Shown piece after piece: positions 9,260 through 24,421 of a stretch of DNA of 64,000 nt. Below the pieces are notes generated by a model. That model saw only the letters and a program-made list of their open reading frames with translations. It had not been told where the DNA came from and searched no databases. Numbering within the stretch: the stretch's first letter is position 1; each line of letters opens with the position of its first letter. The position numbers and the translations under genes were made by a program. The DNA is from Bursaphelenchus xylophilus (Eukaryota; Nematoda; Chromadorea; Rhabditida; Aphelenchoididae): NCBI GenBank assembly GCA_904066235.2, contig CAJFCV020000002.1, positions 10,788,001 through 10,852,000 of the forward strand. Direction: 5' to 3'.

Positions 9260-9349
9260 TAGATGTAACTAAACTAAAAAGTGGTTATTAGACTATAAGA
9301 GATTGCCATTCCACGTATACTACATCATCATACCTTATGTTAATGTTCG

Positions 9350-9580
9350 ACGTCGTTTTTTAGAAGCAAAAAGAAATTCGTTGATAGCTGCGAAGAACAC
9401 AAAGATATAAGCAAATTATTTGTTCCAAATTTCTTGAAACAACAGTATAATTATATTATATATAATATGTATAGCAACGGTGGAATATATTAATTTATTT
9501 GTTAAAACATGAACTTAATTTTTTCCGGACTTAAAATTTGTTTTATACACATAGAAAATATATATTAAAATATAATACGA
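9350..9580. repeat. Direct repeat, left member, with foldback-element end
   Basis: The stretch 9350-9440 is the terminal 90 bp of the palindromic element, ending in a mutated CTTGAAACAAC. It is followed by about 130 bp that recur almost unchanged at 10486-10616. The two members bracket about 900 bp containing the integrase fragment and the 9591 ORF. Confidence 0.65.
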
Positions 9581-9720
9581 GTGACCAAACATGTCATCTG
9601 CTTCATCAACAAATGCCGGCCAGGTCGTACGCCAATACCAGAAACTCCTCAAGAGGCGGGAAGGCGGCTCGTCAGAGCCGAGCAAGAAATCTATCCCCCC
9701 CACCCCAAAAATTCAAACGA
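9581..9720 (+). pseudogene. 140-bp fragment of the BEL/Pao integrase region
   Basis: This is nearly identical to 17962-18100 within the retroelement pol gene. It differs by a G/C substitution near 9619 and by one extra C in the run of C at about 9695-9701. The extra base puts the pol frame out of register. The left junction abuts the direct repeat and the right junction abuts an ATG at 9720. It is a captured or transposed fragment rather than a decaying whole element. Confidence 0.75.
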
Positions 9721-10073
9721 TGAACACCCACGAAGTTCGGATCCTTCGCATGCGACTAACGCAAGCGACGACAGAAGCGTCGCTAGCGGTGAACAAGTTG
9801 AAGGCGGAGTTACTAAAAATAGAACAAGAAGCCAAGGCCAAAGGAATTCCAACCAGTCTCCACATCGGAACAACGAGAGCAATCCAGTCAATGATAAACG
9901 GAGTGTTCCTTCCGTCGGACATCGGCGGGGAGCACTGCGTCCCACCCTACGACCACAGGGCAGAAGGAGCGTCGTTGGCCGGGGCTCTAAACAGAACAGA
10001 GCTGGCACCAGGAAATGACCCACCCAACGTTAATCAACCCGCATCCAAAAATAATTATTGTAAGGTTATTTAA
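9591..10073 (+). CDS. Unknown 160-residue protein, 5' part from retroelement sequence in a shifted frame
   Basis: The frame starts inside the integrase fragment, reading it in a frame different from pol until the extra C brings it back to PPTPKIQT. It then runs on for 117 residues from a second in-frame ATG at 9720. The 9720 part has a long lysine- and glutamate-rich helix (EASLAVNKLKAELLKIEQEA), then a mixed segment and a polar tail. The start at 9720 may be the original one, with the upstream 43 codons added by the insertion. The helix resembles the coiled-coil N-terminus of some retroelement Gag proteins, but I do not recognise the protein. An AATAAA-rich tail follows at about 10090. Confidence 0.4.
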   Translation: MSSASSTNAGQVVRQYQKLLKRREGGSSEPSKKSIPPTPKIQTMNTHEVRILRMRLTQATTEASLAVNKLKAELLKIEQEAKAKGIPTSLHIGTTRAIQSMINGVFLPSDIGGEHCVPPYDHRAEGASLAGALNRTELAPGNDPPNVNQPASKNNYCKVI

Positions 10074-10284
10074 TTAAATTTTATCAACGCAATAAAATAA
10101 AATAAATAATATAAAATATAAAATTCAATAAAAATTAGTTAGGATGTGAGTCATTTTGAAAGAAGCACCAGTTGACCGTCGGTTACACCGTTGACGACGT
10201 TAAATTTCAAACGCCATAATATTTATTTTACGTTAGGCAAAGGTAGCCCTGACATCTCATTAATGTCACGGCGAGGTTCGAACG

Positions 10285-10616
10285 TAATACGATGTGATTT
10301 TTTAAAAAGGCCCTAATTTTCTCCGCCGAGAAATGGGCCCTCCGCCGACGACAAAACATTTTTTTAGAGATTCTAAAAACGCACGACGTCGTTTTTTAGA
10401 AGCAAAAAGAAATTCGTTGATAGCTGCAAAGAACACAAAGATATAAGCAAATTATTTGGTCCAAATTTCTTAAAACACCCTGTATAATTATATTATATAT
10501 AATACGTAAAGCAACGGTGGAATATATTAATTTATTTGTTAAAACATGAACTTAATTTTTTCCGGACTTAAAATTTGTTTTATACACATAGAAAATATAT
10601 ATTAAAATATAATACG
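10285..10616. repeat. Foldback-element end plus direct repeat, right member
   Basis: 10285-10493 is the right end of the palindromic element, ending CTTAAAACACCCTG before TA. From about 10486 it continues into the 130-bp sequence shared with 9447-9580. The gap between the two direct repeats suggests that a segment was inserted or duplicated between two copies of this end. Confidence 0.6.
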
Positions 10617-10640
10617 ATATACTACAATATACTACGTAAA

Positions 10641-14812: not shown

Positions 14813-15100
14813 ATGGACACGTGCCAGTGGCTCACCGAACAAATGTGTAAACTAAAAATTAACACTCTATACGCAACACCGGATTTCAGTCCCTTGGACT
14901 GTCGACGAAAGCCCTTGTCGTCGACAATCCTCATCGTCCCAACCACCGACGACGGGGTAGCGTTTGTCCGCAACCAGCGGATCCCGCACGCCCTGGTGGT
15001 GGTGTGGCAGGCGCCCATTAACTATGACTCACTCTGCCGTAACGAGCCTACCATCTTTGGAAGATTCCATGTTCACATGGCAAACCCACACAAAAAGTAA
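14813..15100 (+). CDS. Unknown 95-residue ORF behind a duplicated promoter-like module
   Basis: The first 28 codons lie in the module shared with 12661-12840. The rest encodes a compact segment containing STILIVPTTDDGVAF and PHALVVVWQAPINYD. It ends 60 bp before the LTR fragment of the chimeric element. Function is unknown. It could be an unrelated gene into which the element inserted, or another piece of the accessory array. Confidence 0.35.
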   Translation: MDTCQWLTEQMCKLKINTLYATPDFSPLDCRRKPLSSTILIVPTTDDGVAFVRNQRIPHALVVVWQAPINYDSLCRNEPTIFGRFHVHMANPHKK

Positions 15101-15159
15101 CAAGATTACAAAATAAAATTGTCCGTAGCTCGAAAAAACCCGTTGGAGAAAGTGTTCGC

Positions 15160-15291
15160 TGTTGCGACTCGACTCGCAAAGAATTGTAAAAAGTTTTTTC
15201 AACTATATTATTTTTATCTTTCCTCTTGTTTGTAAAGGGAAAAAATTGTGAGCGTTCTTTACTCTCCATTTCTCTCGCAATTGTTTACTAA
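15160..15291 (+). mobile_element. Truncated 5' LTR of the chimeric BEL/Pao element
   Basis: These 132 bp, beginning TGTTGCGACTCGACTCG, are identical by eye to the first 132 bp of the 3' LTR at 21565. The left edge is a canonical LTR start. The right edge is abrupt: the TATA box, poly(A) signal and primer-binding site are missing, and virus-like coding sequence starts at once. Identity of the two copies points to a recent insertion or to gene conversion. Confidence 0.8.
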
Positions 15292-17112
15292 CAGCGACTC
15301 AAACCTCGGTGGCAATCCCAATCACTAACGTGAAACTCCCGGGTGCCGAGTATTCTACGATTTAAAAGACCTACAGTATCAAGTAAAGGACTCACCAATT
15401 GAAAAGAACCATGCACTGATAATGATTGATGTTGATTACTATGTCGATATAAATCAGTATCTATCTCTATTCCATCCTATTGTAATGTACACGATGTCGC
15501 CAACCAAAGTTTCGACTGTTGGCGAAAAGAGTGAGACTGCATTTTATATAGAAGGAGATGAGGTGTGCAATTTTGTCAGTGGCGGGGCAACTTATAAACA
15601 CCCTATCTGGGATTACGAGACCGACCACCTGGCTGTAACTGATCGTACCAATAATTTGTGTATGTATACAGTGGAATCCAGGAGGTGCGAGTTGAATGAC
15701 CAGTATAAAATAGTGTGGTTATTACCCCGCGCTAGAGTACAAGGGTCCCGGTGGTTGTTTAGTCCTTGGAAAGTTCTGTTTGAAATCAAAAAGGTCGAAA
15801 GGAAACTCTACACATCTGGAGGAGTAACGCTTGTGTTTGATATCATCAACAATACAGTTTGTGTCAAGTCGCTTGATAGCGTACACCAGATAATGCTAGA
15901 TGCTACATTATACAGTTCAATTGTCATAAGAGCATCAAAGAAGGATGACCCATTGATATCAGACGTTGAGAGAATATTGTTAAGTCAATACCCCGACAAA
16001 GGCCGCAAACAAGCTACATTAGATGCAGCATTATTGATTGATGCTTTATCTAAGTTACCGAAACCTACGGTGACAACAAGTAGCATGGGGCCAACGTCTC
16101 ATTTTCAATCTTTGGGACCGCTAGCAACGGAAGACGGAGAGGAACGAGGACAAAGGGTAACTGAACCTCTAATTGACGCACCGTCTGTCATCCCAAAGAA
16201 CAGTTACAACAATGACGTAGCAATGGTTCAGAGCCGCATCACAAATGTGCGGAATGAGAAAACCATACCACCAGAATTCTACAAGTATAAAGGTGAATTT
16301 ATGCAATTGCTCGTTCCGGCTGATGTTTGCCACTCGGTTGTACCTTTTGATCTCGACGAAGTCGAGAGGCGTCAGGATAAACCGTTACAACGAGCAAGAT
16401 CAGCGCAGGTCAAGTCAACGGCCTCATTGAATGCATCTAACAAGAACAAATCATTCATTAAAACTGAACCATATGCTGGAACAAACGCCCCACGTCCAAT
16501 AACGACGATGTCGGCTGAACATACCATGGTCTTGAGCACAATCACATTGGCCTTTTGTGACCAAGTGATGAAGAGAGTACCGTGGTATATGCCTGGTAAG
16601 TCCACCAGGGAAGTCGCTAGTCGGATTAAAGAACATAGTGATAAACCATTTATCACATCTGACTACAGTAGGTTTGATGGACATTGTTCCAAAGATCTAG
16701 CACAGTTGGCAAAAGCATGTATAGGGCGAGCATTACAGACCAAGGATAGAACAACTTTTAGCAATTTATTTGAGAAAACTTATTGCAAGAAAGCTGTAAC
16801 ATCCAATGGTTACGTATACTTGGCCCTAGATGGCACCAGATCAGGTAGTCCCACAACATCAGTGGGGAACACAATAATTGATGCCTTCATAGCATTTGTG
16901 GCCCTACGTGAATTGGGTGTGCCATCAAAGAAGGCTTTTAACTCAATTACGATAGTTTGTGGAGACGATGCTTTGTTGCAATCTATCGCTGGATTATTAC
17001 CAATGTATGAGCTTGTGGCTACAAAACTAGGTATGTCCTTGGAAGCACGTGAGATCCCTTATGGAGAACCGGTTCCATTCGCGGGCAGATATTTCGTAGA
17101 CCCAAGTTTAAG
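15292..17112 (+). CDS. Endogenous noda-like viral RNA-dependent RNA polymerase (5' end lacks start)
   Basis: A continuous frame of 570 codons runs from the first ATG at 15422. In-frame coding character extends back to 15329, and a single stop at 15326 separates it from the LTR junction. Palm motifs are intact: motif A with the two aspartates of DYSRFDG (residues about 414-419), motif B with SGSPTT and the N of GNT (about 473-482), and motif C GDD (514-516). A YY-x-D block near the N-terminus is typical of replicases in noda-like and related plus-strand RNA viruses. Similarity ends near GRYFVDP (about 17107), where BEL pol coding sequence begins in another frame. A DNA copy of an RNA virus gene has no route into the genome except reverse transcription. 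The lack of stops or frameshifts suggests youth or constraint. The virus family is given as noda-like from motif spacing only. Confidence 0.85.
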
Positions 17113-18375
17113 TACGACGGCGATGGCACAGTAACAAAAAGAATGATGGTATCTCATCTCAGAAAATTTTATGACCCACTTGGACTTCTATCTCCAACAA
17201 TGTTGCCATTCAAACGGATCCTTCAAAAGATTTGGGACCTAGGGATCTCATGGGATGACCCCGTGCCCCAAGAACTTGTATTCGAATGGACGAAGTATGT
17301 CGACGACGTGAAAGAAATAGAAGTTCCGCGGATGGTGGAACTAAAATCAGAAGACGTCAACATGGCGGTGTTCTGCGACGCAAGTTCATACGGCTTTGGT
17401 ATTGCTGCATATGTAATTGGACCGATGAAAAAACCTGCTTTAATCTTTGCAAAATCACGACTGTTCCCAAGCGAATTGAAGAAACGATCGAGCATCAAAC
17501 TGACGATTCCCAGAAAGGAAATAACTTCGATGTATGGGGCAGCAAAAGTGGCCAAATTTCTCATGAAGGAACTACCACAAATCAAGAACGTCATCATCTA
17601 CTCAGACAGTCAAGTGGCCATTCAACAGTTATTACATGAAGACGATCAAACCATCTATGTAAGAAACAGAGTACGCGAACTGCAAAGCTACAGAAAGGAG
17701 ATGGAATTTCGCTTTATCGATGGAAAACTCAATCCCGCTGACATTGCAAGTCGCGGAGCAAAAGTAACTGAGCTTATGCACAACGAATTATGGTGGAAAG
17801 GACCGGAATTTCTACTACAGGACATCACGGAATGGCCTTCAACAATGGTTGTCCCAAAACTCACAGACGTTCCCACCGAGACGACGACAACAGCTACCGC
17901 GAAATCCGACGAACCAGCCAGTCTCATCACAAAAGACATGGATTGGAAGAAGCTGATCAATGTGACCAAACATGTCATCTGCTTCATCAACAAATGCCGC
18001 CCAGGTCGTACGCCAATACCAGAAACTCCTCAAGAGGCGGGAAGGCGGCTCGTCAGAGCCGAGCAAGAAATCTATCCCCCCACCCCAAAAATTCAAACGA
18101 GACGACGTCTCTACAAGGATGACATTGGCACATGGCGAGTGGACACCAGACTGGCGAACGCAGAACGAACGGAAAATGCAAAGAACCCCATCTGGCTACC
18201 TGTGGAGAGTCCGCTAGCCCAAAAGATCGTTCAATACCATCATGAAAATAACCACCACCAATCGGCGTTGGCCGTAACATCACTAATAAGAGAAAACTTC
18301 TACATCTCTTACAGGTATGTCAAAACAATGGTTAAGAGGTGCATCCGATGTCGCATCTACAACACTCGTCCTTAA
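17113..18375 (+). CDS. pol: BEL/Pao pol fragment: end of reverse transcriptase, RNase H, integrase zinc-binding domain
   Basis: Reading in the pol frame starts within the viral stop region and becomes clear at KFYDPLGLLSP, the conserved linker after reverse transcriptase in BEL/Pao elements. RNase H follows, with catalytic acidic residues visible in FCDASSYG, RKEITS, YSDSQ and NPADIASRG. Next comes the integrase N-terminal HHCC domain (YHHENNHH then RCIRC). Gag, protease and the reverse transcriptase catalytic core are absent and are replaced by the viral RdRp. A TAA at 18373-18375 interrupts the frame between the zinc-binding domain and the integrase core. The frame continues without shift beyond it, so this is either a single nonsense mutation or a readthrough site. 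Confidence 0.88.
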   Translation, partial: YDGDGTVTKRMMVSHLRKFYDPLGLLSPTMLPFKRILQKIWDLGISWDDPVPQELVFEWTKYVDDVKEIEVPRMVELKSEDVNMAVFCDASSYGFGIAAYVIGPMKKPALIFAKSRLFPSELKKRSSIKLTIPRKEITSMYGAAKVAKFLMKELPQIKNVIIYSDSQVAIQQLLHEDDQTIYVRNRVRELQSYRKEMEFRFIDGKLNPADIASRGAKVTELMHNELWWKGPEFLLQDITEWPSTMVVPKLTDVPTETTTTATAKSDEPASLITKDMDWKKLINVTKHVICFINKCRPGRTPIPETPQEAGRRLVRAEQEIYPPTPKIQTRRRLYKDDIGTWRVDTRLANAERTENAKNPIWLPVESPLAQKIVQYHHENNHHQSALAVTSLIRENFYISYRYVKTMVKRCIRCRIYNTRP

Positions 18376-21300
18376 GAAACTCCAATGTTTCCCCCACTAC
18401 CAACAAGCAGAACAACTACCGGAACGCCATTCGAATCAACGGGACTGGACATCTGTGGACCATTACGAACAAAGGATGGACCAGCATACGTACTGTTACT
18501 GACCTGTCTTCGTACCAGGTCAGTACATTTGGAGCTTACGGACTCCATTAAAACAGAAGACATTCTTAATGCGATGACCAAATTCTGCGCTCGTAGAGGA
18601 GTCCCGCGATATATCCTCAGCGACAACGCCACCTACTTTGTCGCTGGACGAAAAATGTTTTTGGAAAAATATGGACACCTTCAAAACATCACATGGACGC
18701 ACACCACACCTAACGCTCCATGGCGCGGAGCGACCTATGAGAGATTGAACAGAAGTCTAAAAGAAGGAATCAAACGGACCCTGGGACGATCACGACCTTC
18801 ATATAAAGAACTGGAAACCCTTGTCATCGCAATCGAAGGAACTCTTAACAATCGTCCTCTGCTTCCGTTATACGACGATAACGACAGCTTTGAAGCCCTG
18901 CGACCGGTGGACTTCTTACGACCAAACGGAACCAGGTACGATGAAAATGGTGATACAGCGAACGAATCAAGCGATCCAGACTTCGTGATAAAGGCATACA
19001 AAATCAATGAGCTACGACAACTTTACGACAAGTTCAATGAAAGGCTTGACAAGTTTTGGGCACGATGGAGAAAGGAATACCTGGACACACTGGCCGATCG
19101 TGGAAACTATCAAGAGAAGCAAACTCTCATTCCGAAACCAGGAGAACTTGTAATCCTGGAAGAGCCAGAACAACCGAGAGGAGAATGGAAAATGGCCAGG
19201 ATTAAAAGAGCAATCAAATCCAAAGATGGAATCACGAGAAACTGCGAGATCATCCTGCCTAATCGGAAGACTGCAATCCGAGCAGTCAATTTATTACATC
19301 CATTAGAAATAGGAGGAGAAGTTGAAGGAGAAGAATTGGACTACAAGACGAAGGAGGACCTGGAGAGAGAGCAAAAACAACCTGTTCCGGCTAGATGTGG
19401 ACGTCCAAGGCGAAACAAATTTATCGACTACACCCCTCTATTAATGTTGTTAACATTCGTCATTGGAGGCGTCAATGGTCAAACGAATCAGCCCAAGTTG
19501 TGTCTCGGGAAGACCCGAGTTCTATGGAGGATGCCAGATGTGGCCAGTTGTGATTACGACTTGTCCGTCAACAGCGACGTTGGGAAGCCAAGACGGATAG
19601 AACTCTACAAAAGAAACACAATCGAATTTCATTCTCCTGCCTATGTATGTCGGTTGGAGGCAATGACCGTAAGACAACAGACGCTGTTGAACGGCGTCCC
19701 AGAAGTTCGAGAAGACCAAAACCCACCCGAAGTGCTATCAGAAGAAGAATGTAAGAAGATGATTGTGGAAAGAAAATGCAAACATGGCGAATTAGTAAAA
19801 GGGAAGTCGATTTACCGGACACACAACAAAGTTAGCATCGACCCACCAAACAGAATCATGACCTTCTTAAATGGAGAAAAAGTGGATGTCAAGAGAAACT
19901 GCCTCCTGCTGGAAACAAAGGTATTCGCCCACTACGGGAGCCCATCAGCAACGTCGGCAATGGGAGACCTATCTGGCTGCACTTATTCCGCTGGAATATG
20001 CCGTACCAAGGAAAACGAAATATTCGTGTGGAAAGTCAACCAAACGCAAAGGTGTGAATTTGTAAAGGCTTATCAAGGAGTTGGCGTGGTCACCGATAAG
20101 TCTGCTGTGATCGAAGATCTGCACGCCATGGTCACATTCAACACCACTATTACAAAATCGGATTGCAATCAAACAATAATCCCAACAGATCAAGGACTTG
20201 GAATTCGTATCGGTCCCCCAATCAAAATTCGTGGAATTCAAGACGAGACTCCTGACTTACCAACGCGGGCACCGTTTATCCAGCCAAAGGATCTACCTAC
20301 AATGCCAACAACTACACTTCGGCCAACGAGTCGACCGACGACTACACGGACAACCCCAATACGAACAGAACCTCCGCGAAGAACTACAACGACAGCACCA
20401 ACGAAAGCAACACGTGCAACGACAACGAAGACAACTCGTACAACTACAACTGGAAAAGGATCTGGAAATCCTTCACAGATGTTTGGTTTAATGGAGTTGC
20501 TAAGGGGAGCAACCAAGGAGGACATGATGGCAAAAGGATACGACGAGGAAACCATTGACAATTTCCTCGCTAAAATGAAGCCAAGATGGTCACGACAAGC
20601 AAATTTGGATGTATCCGATGAGGAATCGTCGGATTTGCAGTTCGCCGAATACTACACCCTCAAGCAAATGCGACATCTGGCAAGAGCGATGTGTGCTATG
20701 CTGCGCGAACATTCAACGAGGATTCGAGAAGTCATATCCATCAATCCGACTGTTACTATGCAGAGACTGCTGAACCGGACGAACATTGTAGCCAACCGTT
20801 TGAGCGACGATATCGTTGAAGTTGAGATGTGCCACCGTCTGAACAAGAAGGAGTACCAATTCAAACCCAGTCCCAACGAATGCGTAATACCCATCAGGAT
20901 CAACCAATACAACACTACATTGTTCCTAAATCGTCACACGCAAATTCTCCACCGTTCAAAGGAAACTGCAAAAGAAGAAAATTGTGGACCTACAATGAAT
21001 GTAATCATCGACGGCCAAGTCTACGAATACAACAGAATGACGGGAAAGACAACACCAATTAAAGAACAAGCCAAGCAAGTGAAACTTGAAGAAAAAGACC
21101 AATGGCATTTTCTGGATCAACAATACATCTTCAAAGACATCATACTCCACAAAAGCAACGTGTTCCAAGAAGAGATCTTGGAAGAAATGGAGAAAGCTGT
21201 TAGTACGGAGTCAGAAATATTGGTCCAAGACCAAAGTGTGCTTGAGCACCATGATTTAAGGACGGAAATTCTCGACAGTTGGGGATTACTCTGGACAATA

Positions 21301-21555
21301 TGGTACTATGCAAAGATGGTATGGTTTGTATGGGTGACAATCTCGTGTGTACTCCAAACATATGGAACTGTCTACGCAATCTTGGGTTACTACAAGCAAC
21401 GGCAACCACAACCGCAAAACCCACCTCCGGCACAGCCACAGGCCATGGAAATGGTGACGTACTCAATGCATGGAAGTCCTCAACTACACATTCGAAGACC
21501 ATTTCGGACAGAGGATCAGACGCGACCAGGTTTGACGGAATCTCTTCTTCCTTAG
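18376..21555 (+). CDS. pol-env: BEL/Pao integrase core fused in frame to an envelope-like glycoprotein
   Basis: After the TAA the same frame stays open for about 1,060 codons. The integrase core shows the first aspartate in TGLDICGP, the second in SDNATYF and the glutamate in ATYERLNRS. A basic spacer (GRPRRNK, about 19400-19420) leads to a hydrophobic signal-like segment (PLLMLLTFVIGGVNG, 19441-19485). A cysteine-rich ectodomain with several N-glycosylation sites follows, then a threonine-rich mucin-like stretch (20290-20460), a basic SRQ site, a second ectodomain and a C-terminal membrane anchor rich in tryptophan and tyrosine (about 21285-21390). Some nematode BEL/Pao elements carry envelope genes taken from viruses. 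The source family of this one is not clear to me. Lying in one frame with integrase, it would need cleavage or splicing. Confidence 0.8.
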   Translation, partial: ETPMFPPLPTSRTTTGTPFESTGLDICGPLRTKDGPAYVLLLTCLRTRSVHLELTDSIKTEDILNAMTKFCARRGVPRYILSDNATYFVAGRKMFLEKYGHLQNITWTHTTPNAPWRGATYERLNRSLKEGIKRTLGRSRPSYKELETLVIAIEGTLNNRPLLPLYDDNDSFEALRPVDFLRPNGTRYDENGDTANESSDPDFVIKAYKINELRQLYDKFNERLDKFWARWRKEYLDTLADRGNYQEKQTLIPKPGELVILEEPEQPRGEWKMARIKRAIKSKDGITRNCEIILPNRKTAIRAVNLLHPLEIGGEVEGEELDYKTKEDLEREQKQPVPARCGRPRRNKFIDYTPLLMLLTFVIGGVNGQTNQPKLCLGKTRVLWRMPDVASCDYDLSVNSDVGKPRRIELYKRNTIEFHSPAYVCRLEAMTVRQQTLLNGVPEVREDQNPPEVLSEEECKKMIVERKCKHGELVKGKSIYRTHNKVSIDPPNRIMTFLNGEKVDVKRNCLLLETKVFAHYGSPSATSAMGDLSGCTYSAGICRTKENEIFVWKVNQTQRCEFVKAYQGVGVVTDKSAVIEDLHAMVTFNTTITKSDCNQTIIPTDQGLGIRIGPPIKIRGIQDETPDLPTRAPFIQPKDLPTMPTTTLRPTSRPTTTRTTPIRTEPPRRTTTTAPTKATRATTTKTTRTTTTGKGSGNPSQMFGLMELLRGATKEDMMAKGYDEETIDNFLAKMKPRWSRQANLDVSDEESSDLQFAEYYTLKQMRHLARAMCAMLREHSTRIREVISINPTVTMQRLLNRTNIVANRLSDDIVEVEMCHRLNKKEYQFKPSPNECVIPIRINQYNTTLFLNRHTQILHRSKETAKEENCGPTMNVIIDGQVYEYNRMTGKTTPIKEQAKQVKLEEKDQWHFLDQQYIFKDIILHKSNVFQEEILEEMEKAVSTESEILVQDQSVLEHHDLRTEILDSWGLLWTIWYYAKMVWFVWVTISCVLQTYGTVYAILGYYKQRQPQPQNPPPAQPQAMEMVTYSMHGSPQLHIRRPFRTEDQTRPGLTESLLP

Positions 21556-21564
21556 GGCCGGGAG

Positions 21565-22040
21565 TGTTGCGACTCGACTCGCAAAGAATTGTAAAAAGTT
21601 TTTTCAACTATATTATTTTTATCTTTCCTCTTGTTTGTAAAGGGAAAAAATTGTGAGCGTTCTTTACTCTCCATTTCTCTCGCAATTGTTTACTAAAAAG
21701 TCTCTTCATTTTTCTCTTCTTTTCGCGAAACGCGAAAATAACTCTCTTCGCTTTTTTCTAACGCAGAAATTATTGCGAAACAAATCTATCGCATTCTAGA
21801 AACGAATTATGTCACGACATATTTGTCTAAATTTCGAAATTGTTGTGAAATAATGTTTACATCACACTAACCCCACCAGTATATAAACCCGGCCCGAGCC
21901 ATCTAAAGAGAGAGTCGCCTGAAGTAAGATATATTCCTCTACTCTGGAATTGTATACGCTGGTTCTATTCAAATAAACTACTGTGTATAACCTTTTTTGG
22001 ACTAATCTTTCACCACTAGACTTTACTGACTTATTGCACG
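21565..22040 (+). mobile_element. 3' LTR of the chimeric element
   Basis: It begins TGTTGCGACTCG immediately after a purine-rich tract (AGGGCCGGGAG, 21554-21564), the expected plus-strand primer. It carries TATATAAA-type TATA at 21881-21887 and AATAAA at 21972-21977. The right boundary is not fixed: a TTGCA near 22031-22036 would give the usual CA end, but there is no complete 5' LTR to compare with, and I found no clear target-site duplication against the bases before 15160. Confidence 0.75.
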
Positions 22041-22697
22041 GGGCGCAATATCGCCTTGCTTCCGTAAGACATGCTGTTCGTGGCGGTGCAAAATATACAA
22101 AACTCCCTACAAACGCTTTAGCCGACTGCAGTGTCTAGGCCAATGCTCTCTCTGCTTTAACTCCATCTTGCAACCCCAAAATAAAATGCACCAAATGCGC
22201 ACGGCAGCCGCATCACCCGCTCTTATGCCCGCGCGTAAGCGAGGAAAAACAAGAGCAAGTCGGTACTCAACATTTCTGTTCAGGCTAAACGAAAGGCGGT
22301 ACTTGAGGCTCAATGAATCAACAAAAGTGTCGCGCTCCGCGAGAGTAAGAAAGAACAACGCGAACATCAGGATGCTATATATCCCCCAGAGGGATATGCA
22401 GGTTAGGTGGAACTTTTGATAATATGGCATCAAGATTTTCAGTAGCTTTGATCAAATGCGCCCGTGATTTGCCGATTTCAGTCCGTCCGGAATCGGACGT
22501 CACCGTTGTCGCCATTTGAATGAAGTTGTGTACTAGATTTCACGGCCCTTCTCCCACACGATCAGGCACCGCTTCTTCTCACAACGGGTCCGGGACTCTT
22601 TCCTCAGACCAACCCTAAAAACACAACAAATCCAACGATAAATAACACACCTTTTATCCGCCTCAATCCGTCTACAATCACACAAATATATTATATA
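22041..22697. other. No gene seen
   Basis: Short opposing frames exist at 22107-22433 but show no domain, start context or similarity that I can recognise. Confidence 0.4.
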
Positions 22698-24109
22698 CTC
22701 CCCGTACAATGTTTTGACCCCCCTCCTAACTCCGTCCAAAGTGTACTAATTCGGACCAAATTTGGTATGTAGTATACTCACAGGCTAGTAACAAAAAATA
22801 ACATAGCAGGACCTACCTTATGGTTGAATATCAAAATCTAGGGAAAATTTTCAAAAATCACCTTAAAAAATCGAGGAAAAAGTTTTGACCCCCCATTAAA
22901 AAACGTTAGATATCGCCAGCGGATGCCACGCAAACCTATTGTAATCGACGTCCCATACCTGAATACAGGTTAATAAATGGTTTCCCGTTGAATGCTTCGT
23001 TGCATTTGAGGATTCAACGCGTTAAACCGTTTTTTGCTGCCCAAAATTGTTACCTTCTCCTTTCAATAAAAGTGCAAGGTGGCCTGGCGGTGTAGATTCG
23101 GCAGATACCCTCTTGTCATGCCCAGCCTTGGTGAGCCATTTGCTCTTTGACTCAAGGTCGAGATGTGGTCGTTAGGTCCTCAATGTAATCGTGAGACTCC
23201 TAGTTACTCTCAAACAAAGAATGAACTCCGGCTGACACGGTCTCATATGGTTTGCAGGCGCAACTTCGCCGATCTGCACCTTAACGAAAAACCCGCGTTT
23301 TTCAAATGGATTTTTAGCCACCAAAAACGGTCTTCATTTGATGGACCAGGTAATTTAAGACGGTACAGCACCCACCATACTCATTTGAGACGTATGAAAC
23401 GCCAAGTTGGAGGTGGGGATGTCATCGTACTCGGGGTCATCTACAGCAACGGCAAACTTAAGATTAAGGTGAATGAAACCCATTACAAAACGTGTCAAAT
23501 CAAAACATTTTACATTACTGAGAGTAAATAGAAGTCTCACGATTACATTGAGGACCTAACGACCACATCTCGACCTTGAGTCGAAGGGCAAATGGCTCAC
23601 CAAGGCTGGGCATGACAAGAGGGTATCTGCCGAATCTACACCGCCAGGCCACCATGCACTTTTATTGAAAGGAGAAGGTAAATACCGGTCTAAATCACAT
23701 GATATAAACCCAATTTAGAGCTCTAGGAAAGCGCTAAGGCAAGATTTTTACAATTTTGGGCAGCTCTACATTAAAAACGGTTTAACGCGTTGAATCCTCA
23801 AATGCAACGAAGCATTCAACGGGAAACCATTTATTAATCTGTATTCAGGTATGGGACGTCGATTACAATAGGTTTGCGTGGCATCCGCTGGCGATATCTA
23901 ACGTTTTTTAATGGGGGGTCAAAACTTTTTCCTCGATTTTTTAAGGTGATTTTTGAAAATTTTCCCTAGATTTTGATATTCAACTATAAGGTAGGTCCTG
24001 CTATGTTATTTTTTGTTACTAGCTTGTGAGTATACTACATACCAAATTTGGTACGAATTAGTACACTTTGGACGGAGTTAGGAGGGGGGTCAAAACATTG
24101 TACGGGGAG
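22698..24109. mobile_element. Inverted-repeat TA-flanked element with Tc1/mariner core
   Basis: Ends CTCCCCGTACAATG and CATTGTACGGGGAG are exact complements and are flanked by TA at 22696-22697 and 24110-24111. The arms are about 500 bp each and nearly identical, covering the TTTTGACCCCCC blocks and, further in, 23050-23200 against 23530-23690. About 320 bp of unique sequence in the middle holds a transposase remnant. Confidence 0.85.
23205..23531 (+). pseudogene. Tc1/mariner transposase remnant
   Basis: The centre of the element encodes FKWIFSHQKRSSFDGP, then RQVGGGDVIVLGVIYSNGKL. This follows the family pattern around the second catalytic aspartate: a WIFSDEK-type stretch, FDGPD, then GGGSVMVWGAIS-x-GK-L. 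The aspartate position reads HQK here and only about 90 residues remain. The fragment is non-functional but identifies the superfamily of the element that encloses it. Confidence 0.75.
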
Positions 24110-24421
24110 TATACGTAAACAGATACACAATCACCGACGAATAACTTGGCCCGAGCGGTCCTCGACACTTCTCGGCCGTTTCGTACGTGCCAAATCCCAA
24201 TGACTGTCCAAATTGTCCCCATAATTCCCATTTCCACGGCTTGCGACGGAATGCCAATGCTGTCAATCTGATCGCTTCGAGACTCGGCGGTGGTCCAAAT
24301 GCCTCCCGGTTGTACTGTGTTTGTCTTTGGTCAACCCGCAAACTTGGGTTAATAAACTTTATTTTTATTAACACACGAAAATCCAGCCAAAATTGATCAA
24401 AAATTTTTTACTTCCAAACAC

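Follow-up and report, generated by a model that had tools for sequence, protein, structure and literature searches.

A nodavirus-like polymerase fragment in a defective BEL/Pao retrotransposon of Bursaphelenchus xylophilus, and its probable entry by template switching

How did sequence from an RNA virus come to lie inside a retrotransposon of a nematode? The question is raised by a chimeric element of Bursaphelenchus xylophilus, the pinewood nematode, a 6,891-bp unit at positions 15160-22050 of the window, the 64,000-nt stretch C2:10788001-10852000 that was analysed. By ORF length, 132-nt LTR identity and Bel/Pao domains this element appears to match eBxnv-1 (deposited sequence LC158686), published by Cotton et al. 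in 2016 (PMC5177903): both have a 570-aa ORF, exact LTR identity over 132 nt and a Bel/Pao peptidase and integrase, and both are single copy. These authors described a single-exon nodavirus-like ORF of 570 aa within a degenerate Bel/Pao element that they placed in the Tas clade, with LTRs identical over 132 nt; they closed an assembly gap by genomic PCR, thereby confirming the locus, and found it at the same position in four of six strains, the other two, OKD1-F7 and C14-5, and B. mucronatus lacking it (PMC5177903). They further reported that the locus is expressed at a low level in every stage and that 1,713 bp of it are free of SNPs and indels in four strains, and offered, as speculation, copy-choice recombination or template switching by reverse transcriptase as its origin (PMC5177903). 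The virus-in-retrotransposon locus, template-switch proposal included, has thus been known since 2016, and a literature search on the name eBxnv-1 returned no report beyond that paper. No difference is seen in the element itself; what the present analysis adds to the main text of the paper is the full, longer LTR, a gag patch and with it a third join, sister copies, a TCGC flanking repeat and variants shared by the two LTRs. Our genome searches covered 8 contigs (78,253,340 bases); the Ka4C1 assembly v5, from Nanopore and Hi-C data, comprises 11 scaffolds, five of them unassigned contigs shorter than 20 kb (PMC7561696). From left to right, the parts of the element are:

15156-15159, no strand: left 4-bp flanking repeat TCGC, a likely target-site duplication (read from the sequence)
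15160-15291, plus strand: left LTR piece, limited to U3 nt 1-132
15292-15342, plus strand: gag patch, 51 nt, same as in two sister copies
15343-17097, plus strand: nodavirus-like insert, 1,755 bp, with part of the methyltransferase region and part of the RdRp
15422-17134, plus strand: 570-aa ORF, its final codons running into pol out of frame
17098-18375, plus strand: remaining pol, first part, with Peptidase_A17 and Integrase_H2C2; in-frame stop at 18373
18385-21555, plus strand: 1,056-aa ORF with DUF5641, then an env-like region
21565-22050, plus strand: right LTR, 486 bp, with the string TATATAAA at LTR nt 316
22051-22054, no strand: right 4-bp flanking repeat TCGC (read from the sequence)

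The viral nature of the insert is apparent from profile and structure-database searches with the ORF divided into two pieces, which recovered the Pfam families Noda_Vmethyltr (6.4e-25) and RdRP_1 (1.2e-14), with RdRP_3 and RdRP_2 weaker. Both pieces also match PDB chain 8fm9, an RNA-directed RNA polymerase of 1,011 residues, the first over residues 160-222 (1.6e-06) and the second over residues 475-699 (2.6e-11); for the second piece 12 other PDB sequences, including other RNA-virus polymerases, are listed with weaker values of 8.7e-05 to 0.003. We take 8fm9 to be flock house virus protein A, the nodavirus RNA1 polymerase. The methyltransferase and RdRp domains of nodaviral type indicate that the insert derives from the Nodaviridae, and the comparison with viral RdRps that the first-pass annotation had proposed returned nodaviral matches in Pfam and PDB. 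The notion that the 570-aa ORF is a plain gag or reverse transcriptase misread as an RdRp was rejected, as its best Pfam and PDB matches are nodaviral. A search for Peptidase_A6, the nodaviral capsid family of RNA2, gave no match, and control genomes likewise gave none. In a scan of viral contigs with the 266-aa RdRp piece 23 stretches fit a pattern and none was confirmed, while a protein search with the same piece, under a length rule that excluded full-length relatives, yielded 634 candidates and none at E <= 0.001. DNA and protein searches alike placed the viral segment at one position in the genome.

The viral frame is open from 15329 to a stop at 17132 (601 codons) and includes the GDD at 16961-16969; within the 1,755-bp insert it has no stop, whereas every one of the other five frames contains 20 to 53. 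The ends of the insert, 15343 and 17097, were set where the match to the sister copies stops, and viral homology itself is seen from about 15425 to about 16987. By codon count the insert would extrapolate to residues ~133 to ~735 of the 1,011 in 8fm9, which implies that both ends of the protein are missing: what the window shares with protein A is the two aligned pieces of an internal fragment. The earlier description of an intact RdRp frame with GDD is hence borne out for the open frame and the motif and fails for the protein, which is cut at both ends. As the fragment aligns only with the middle of the nodaviral polymerase, a working enzyme is unlikely, and it is probably not an active polymerase. 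Nor is the open frame evidence of function, since young copies keep open frames without selection.

The remainder of the element is BEL/Pao, with Peptidase_A17 (Pao; 9.2e-35) and Integrase_H2C2 (2e-06) downstream of the virus in Pfam searches, where BEL pol had been noted before. The BEL/Pao gag with DUF1759 and the reverse transcriptase are absent except for the 51 nt of gag, and pol is broken by a single in-frame stop; the window copy is a defective member of this group. It ends at 22050, ten bases beyond the 22040 originally given. In the env-like region, at 19969-21552, a match to Glycoprotein_B of herpesviruses stays below threshold (22 bits against a cut-off of 43); a gB-like env has been reported for the nematode Tas element.

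What the element looked like without the virus can be seen in two large virus-free sister copies, one on C1 (L014) and one on C2 (L015), each about 97-98% identical to the window over the aligned parts. L015 has the DUF1759 gag, protease, RVT_1 and Peptidase_A17, and in the stretch fetched its match ends at window position 21168, short of the right LTR. In L014 both LTRs, DUF1759 and the protease are present, with no RVT_1 match in the pieces scanned, and this copy is without ~1.36 kb around the reverse transcriptase region that L015 carries. At the position of the virus L015 has the gag core, protease and reverse transcriptase, in agreement with the first-pass annotation, which had the virus in place of gag, protease and the reverse transcriptase core. 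Relative to the sisters, all segments of the window element are in element order and orientation. A search with the pol piece matched four places: the window's own copy, L014, L015 and a 140-bp scrap in the window. Over 3,487 columns compared, drawn from five segments within 17540-21150, 25 differences are private to the window, 48 to L014 and 26 to L015, and all three differ at 2; at sites where the sisters differ, the window is nearer to L015 across 17540-18400, and its placement elsewhere in pol and env is less clear. Across 527 compared columns, one base beyond the LTR, the two LTRs of L014 show no difference, which argues that the BEL family was active recently. L014 (C1:198600-207600) has, besides its identical LTRs, a single 2,006-aa ORF, and part of the env of another copy lies ahead of it, such that two elements appear to share one LTR. 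Whereas Cotton et al. reported 9 insertion fragments and isolated LTRs and called the chimera the sole appearance of the element (PMC5177903), the newer assembly shows two larger copies. The paper also reports a primer binding site (PMC5177903), whereas the window element is without one of the sister type: the primer-site-like string of both sisters is absent from 15100-22100 in an exact search.

Alignment to L015 resolves three joins. At the first (15291/15292), LTR nt 132 passes into gag 15292-15342 with the intervening 1,011 bp of L015 missing; it is the join where shared bases can be judged, and it has one. The second (15342/15343) leads from gag to virus, its L015 counterpart lying a few codons before DUF1759. 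The third (17097/17098) leads from virus to pol, with the L015 counterpart between RVT_1 and Peptidase_A17. The stretch bounded by the second and third joins stands in place of about 2.5 kb of L015 sequence. The virus is hence not joined to the LTR without spacer, as had been thought, since the 51 nt of gag intervene, and the right join does open into pol but not at ~17110. The gag frame stops at 15363, past the second join, and the viral frame at 17132, past the third, so that no fusion protein spans either; such frame mismatch is as expected for an accident. The sequence of the first join occurs once in the genome with up to one mismatch allowed, which, with the single viral segment, answers the earlier suggestion to look for further copies with the same junctions. 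Genome searches found no intermediate carrying just one of the joins. A hairpin just past the first join was considered as the cause of a jump and not supported (fold z-score -0.74, matched or bettered by 50 of 200 shuffles).

The LTRs bear out the first-pass annotation on two counts: 15160-15291 and 21565-21696 are identical at all 132 positions, and the left edge is an exact LTR terminus, the piece being the first 132 nt of U3 with TCGC directly outside. The 132 bp were rejected as an LTR length; with a right LTR of 486 bp and sister LTRs of 526 bp by match coordinates, they represent a cut left LTR. The left piece lacks the strings TATATAA and TATAAA. It has at least 8 matches in the genome, two of them within the window, and at two alignment columns, 41 and 88, the window's two LTR pieces have in common a variant carried by none of the 6 other matches listed; at column 88 two of these 6, both LTRs of L014, are gapped. 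These shared variants would fit a single template in one round of reverse transcription, with later gene conversion as an alternative. Another LTR piece, at about 585-723 of L018 (C6:11542800-11552700), ends near LTR nt 139, and the window break is at nt 132. The TCGC directly outside both exact LTR ends (15156-15159 and 22051-22054) is what would be expected from integrase insertion of the whole unit 15160-22050, the chance of a 4-bp match being ~1 in 256. Among the copies whose ends were read, both outer ends were readable in the window copy and in the solo LTR L020 on C6, which has CTAG on both sides; this repeat can be read as 5 bp (ACTAG) if the LTR is one base shorter, while the window fits 4 bp only.

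Taken together, we consider it probable, at roughly 0.7, that the nodavirus-like sequence entered a BEL/Pao copy when reverse transcriptase switched template to viral RNA and back, the product then being inserted by integrase. The TCGC repeat, the two private LTR variants and the virus-free sisters support this account, as which the locus had also been explained in the first-pass annotation, and it is the best one available; that it formed in one step is inferred. Composition, the three joins, the flanking repeat, the shared variants, the sisters and the single viral place are read directly from the DNA; we infer that both RNAs were in one particle or cell, that the template jumps occurred, and that the virus entered and the element integrated in a single event. 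The RNAs of the element and of the nodavirus would have come together in a germ-line cell. The first strand would have been copied through env and pol, with a jump at 17097/17098 to viral RNA, of which ~1,755 nt were copied, and a jump back from virus to gag at 15342/15343, where 51 nt were copied. A third jump at 15291/15292 to U3, made either during first-strand synthesis or while a second strand was extended from a primer at the polypurine tract, would leave a left end starting at U3 nt 1, and integrase would then have inserted the chimeric DNA as one unit. For the specific scheme of one reverse-transcription round with these three jumps (from pol into the virus, from there into gag, and on to U3) and a product integrated whole, we would put the odds slightly above even; a third event is required to account for the 1,011 bp missing between LTR and gag, and this could be a later deletion. 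In Triticeae, complex LTR insertions are reported to have been made by template switching (PMC1950507).

The same locus might instead have formed in two steps, with a normal BEL copy integrating first and viral cDNA being pasted in later, for instance during DNA-break repair, at the cost of the gag core, protease and reverse transcriptase, while a separate 1,011-bp deletion took away the remaining left LTR and the first part of gag. Neither the TCGC repeat nor the shared LTR variants discriminate against such a history, as an ordinary copy integrated first and altered later would leave both equally, and losses are seen in the family at large, in the ~1.36 kb missing near the reverse transcriptase of L014 and in truncated LTR copies. 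Yet it calls for free viral cDNA, hence for a reverse transcriptase to make it, and for two separate DNA events that both preserved order and orientation, and no one-join intermediate was found in the genome; we regard it as possible but rather unlikely. That the viral ORF was kept for host use, e.g. for RNA interference against viruses, a speculation of Cotton et al. (PMC5177903), could draw on the 601-codon frame with its GDD, on the low expression in all stages and on the invariance of the 1,713 bp in four strains (PMC5177903). Against this, the fragment aligns to residues 160-699 only of the 1,011-residue protein, the left LTR piece has no TATA string and a young copy stays open without selection, making domestication improbable. 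Wrong joining of viral or contaminant sequence to a BEL copy in the assembly has hardly any probability: the gap was closed by genomic PCR and the locus found in four strains (PMC5177903), the later Nanopore and Hi-C assembly has the same structure, and the agreement of the repeats directly outside the two LTR termini would have to be coincidence.

The chimeric element has neither the gag core, protease and reverse transcriptase nor a primer site of the sister type, and so is likely immobile by itself. The eBxnv-1 transcript contig of 7,088 bp (PMC5177903) is longer than the 6,891-bp unit and would fit read-through from flanking DNA. About 5.5 kb upstream of the element, at 9581-9720, lies the 140-bp BEL pol piece, identical to 17962-18100 at 138 of 140 positions, flanked by direct repeats (9348-9580 and 10384-10617, 96.6%) and beginning a 160-aa ORF; the sequence that follows the pol piece, 9721-10100, is not found elsewhere in the genome, and the region 9348-10617 is possibly a second template-switch product. 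Just to the right of the element, a long inverted repeat at 22694-24113 resembles a fold-back element; its 341-nt arms are 99% complementary and enclose a second pair of arms of 163 nt.

As outlined in PMC5177903, non-retroviral RNA was likewise joined to an LTR retroelement in the LCMV-IAP integration of Geuking et al. (2009) and in the plant potyvirus case of Tanne and Sela (2005). By that outline the former is experimental, whereas the present case is natural and retains most of pol, env and both outer ends, and the latter kept only the terminal repeats of its element. If the template-switch account is true, the locus would be a natural recombinant between a retrotransposon and an RNA virus that retains both outer ends; since the parent element family is still in the genome, the order of the jumps would be readable under the single-round scheme. 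It would stand among the few natural cases in which DNA records how an RNA virus reached the genome of an animal. Together with the third join and the likely target-site repeat, the sister copies weaken the published suggestion of a still-working polymerase, and all three make the published template-switch proposal testable in strains from which the element is reported absent.
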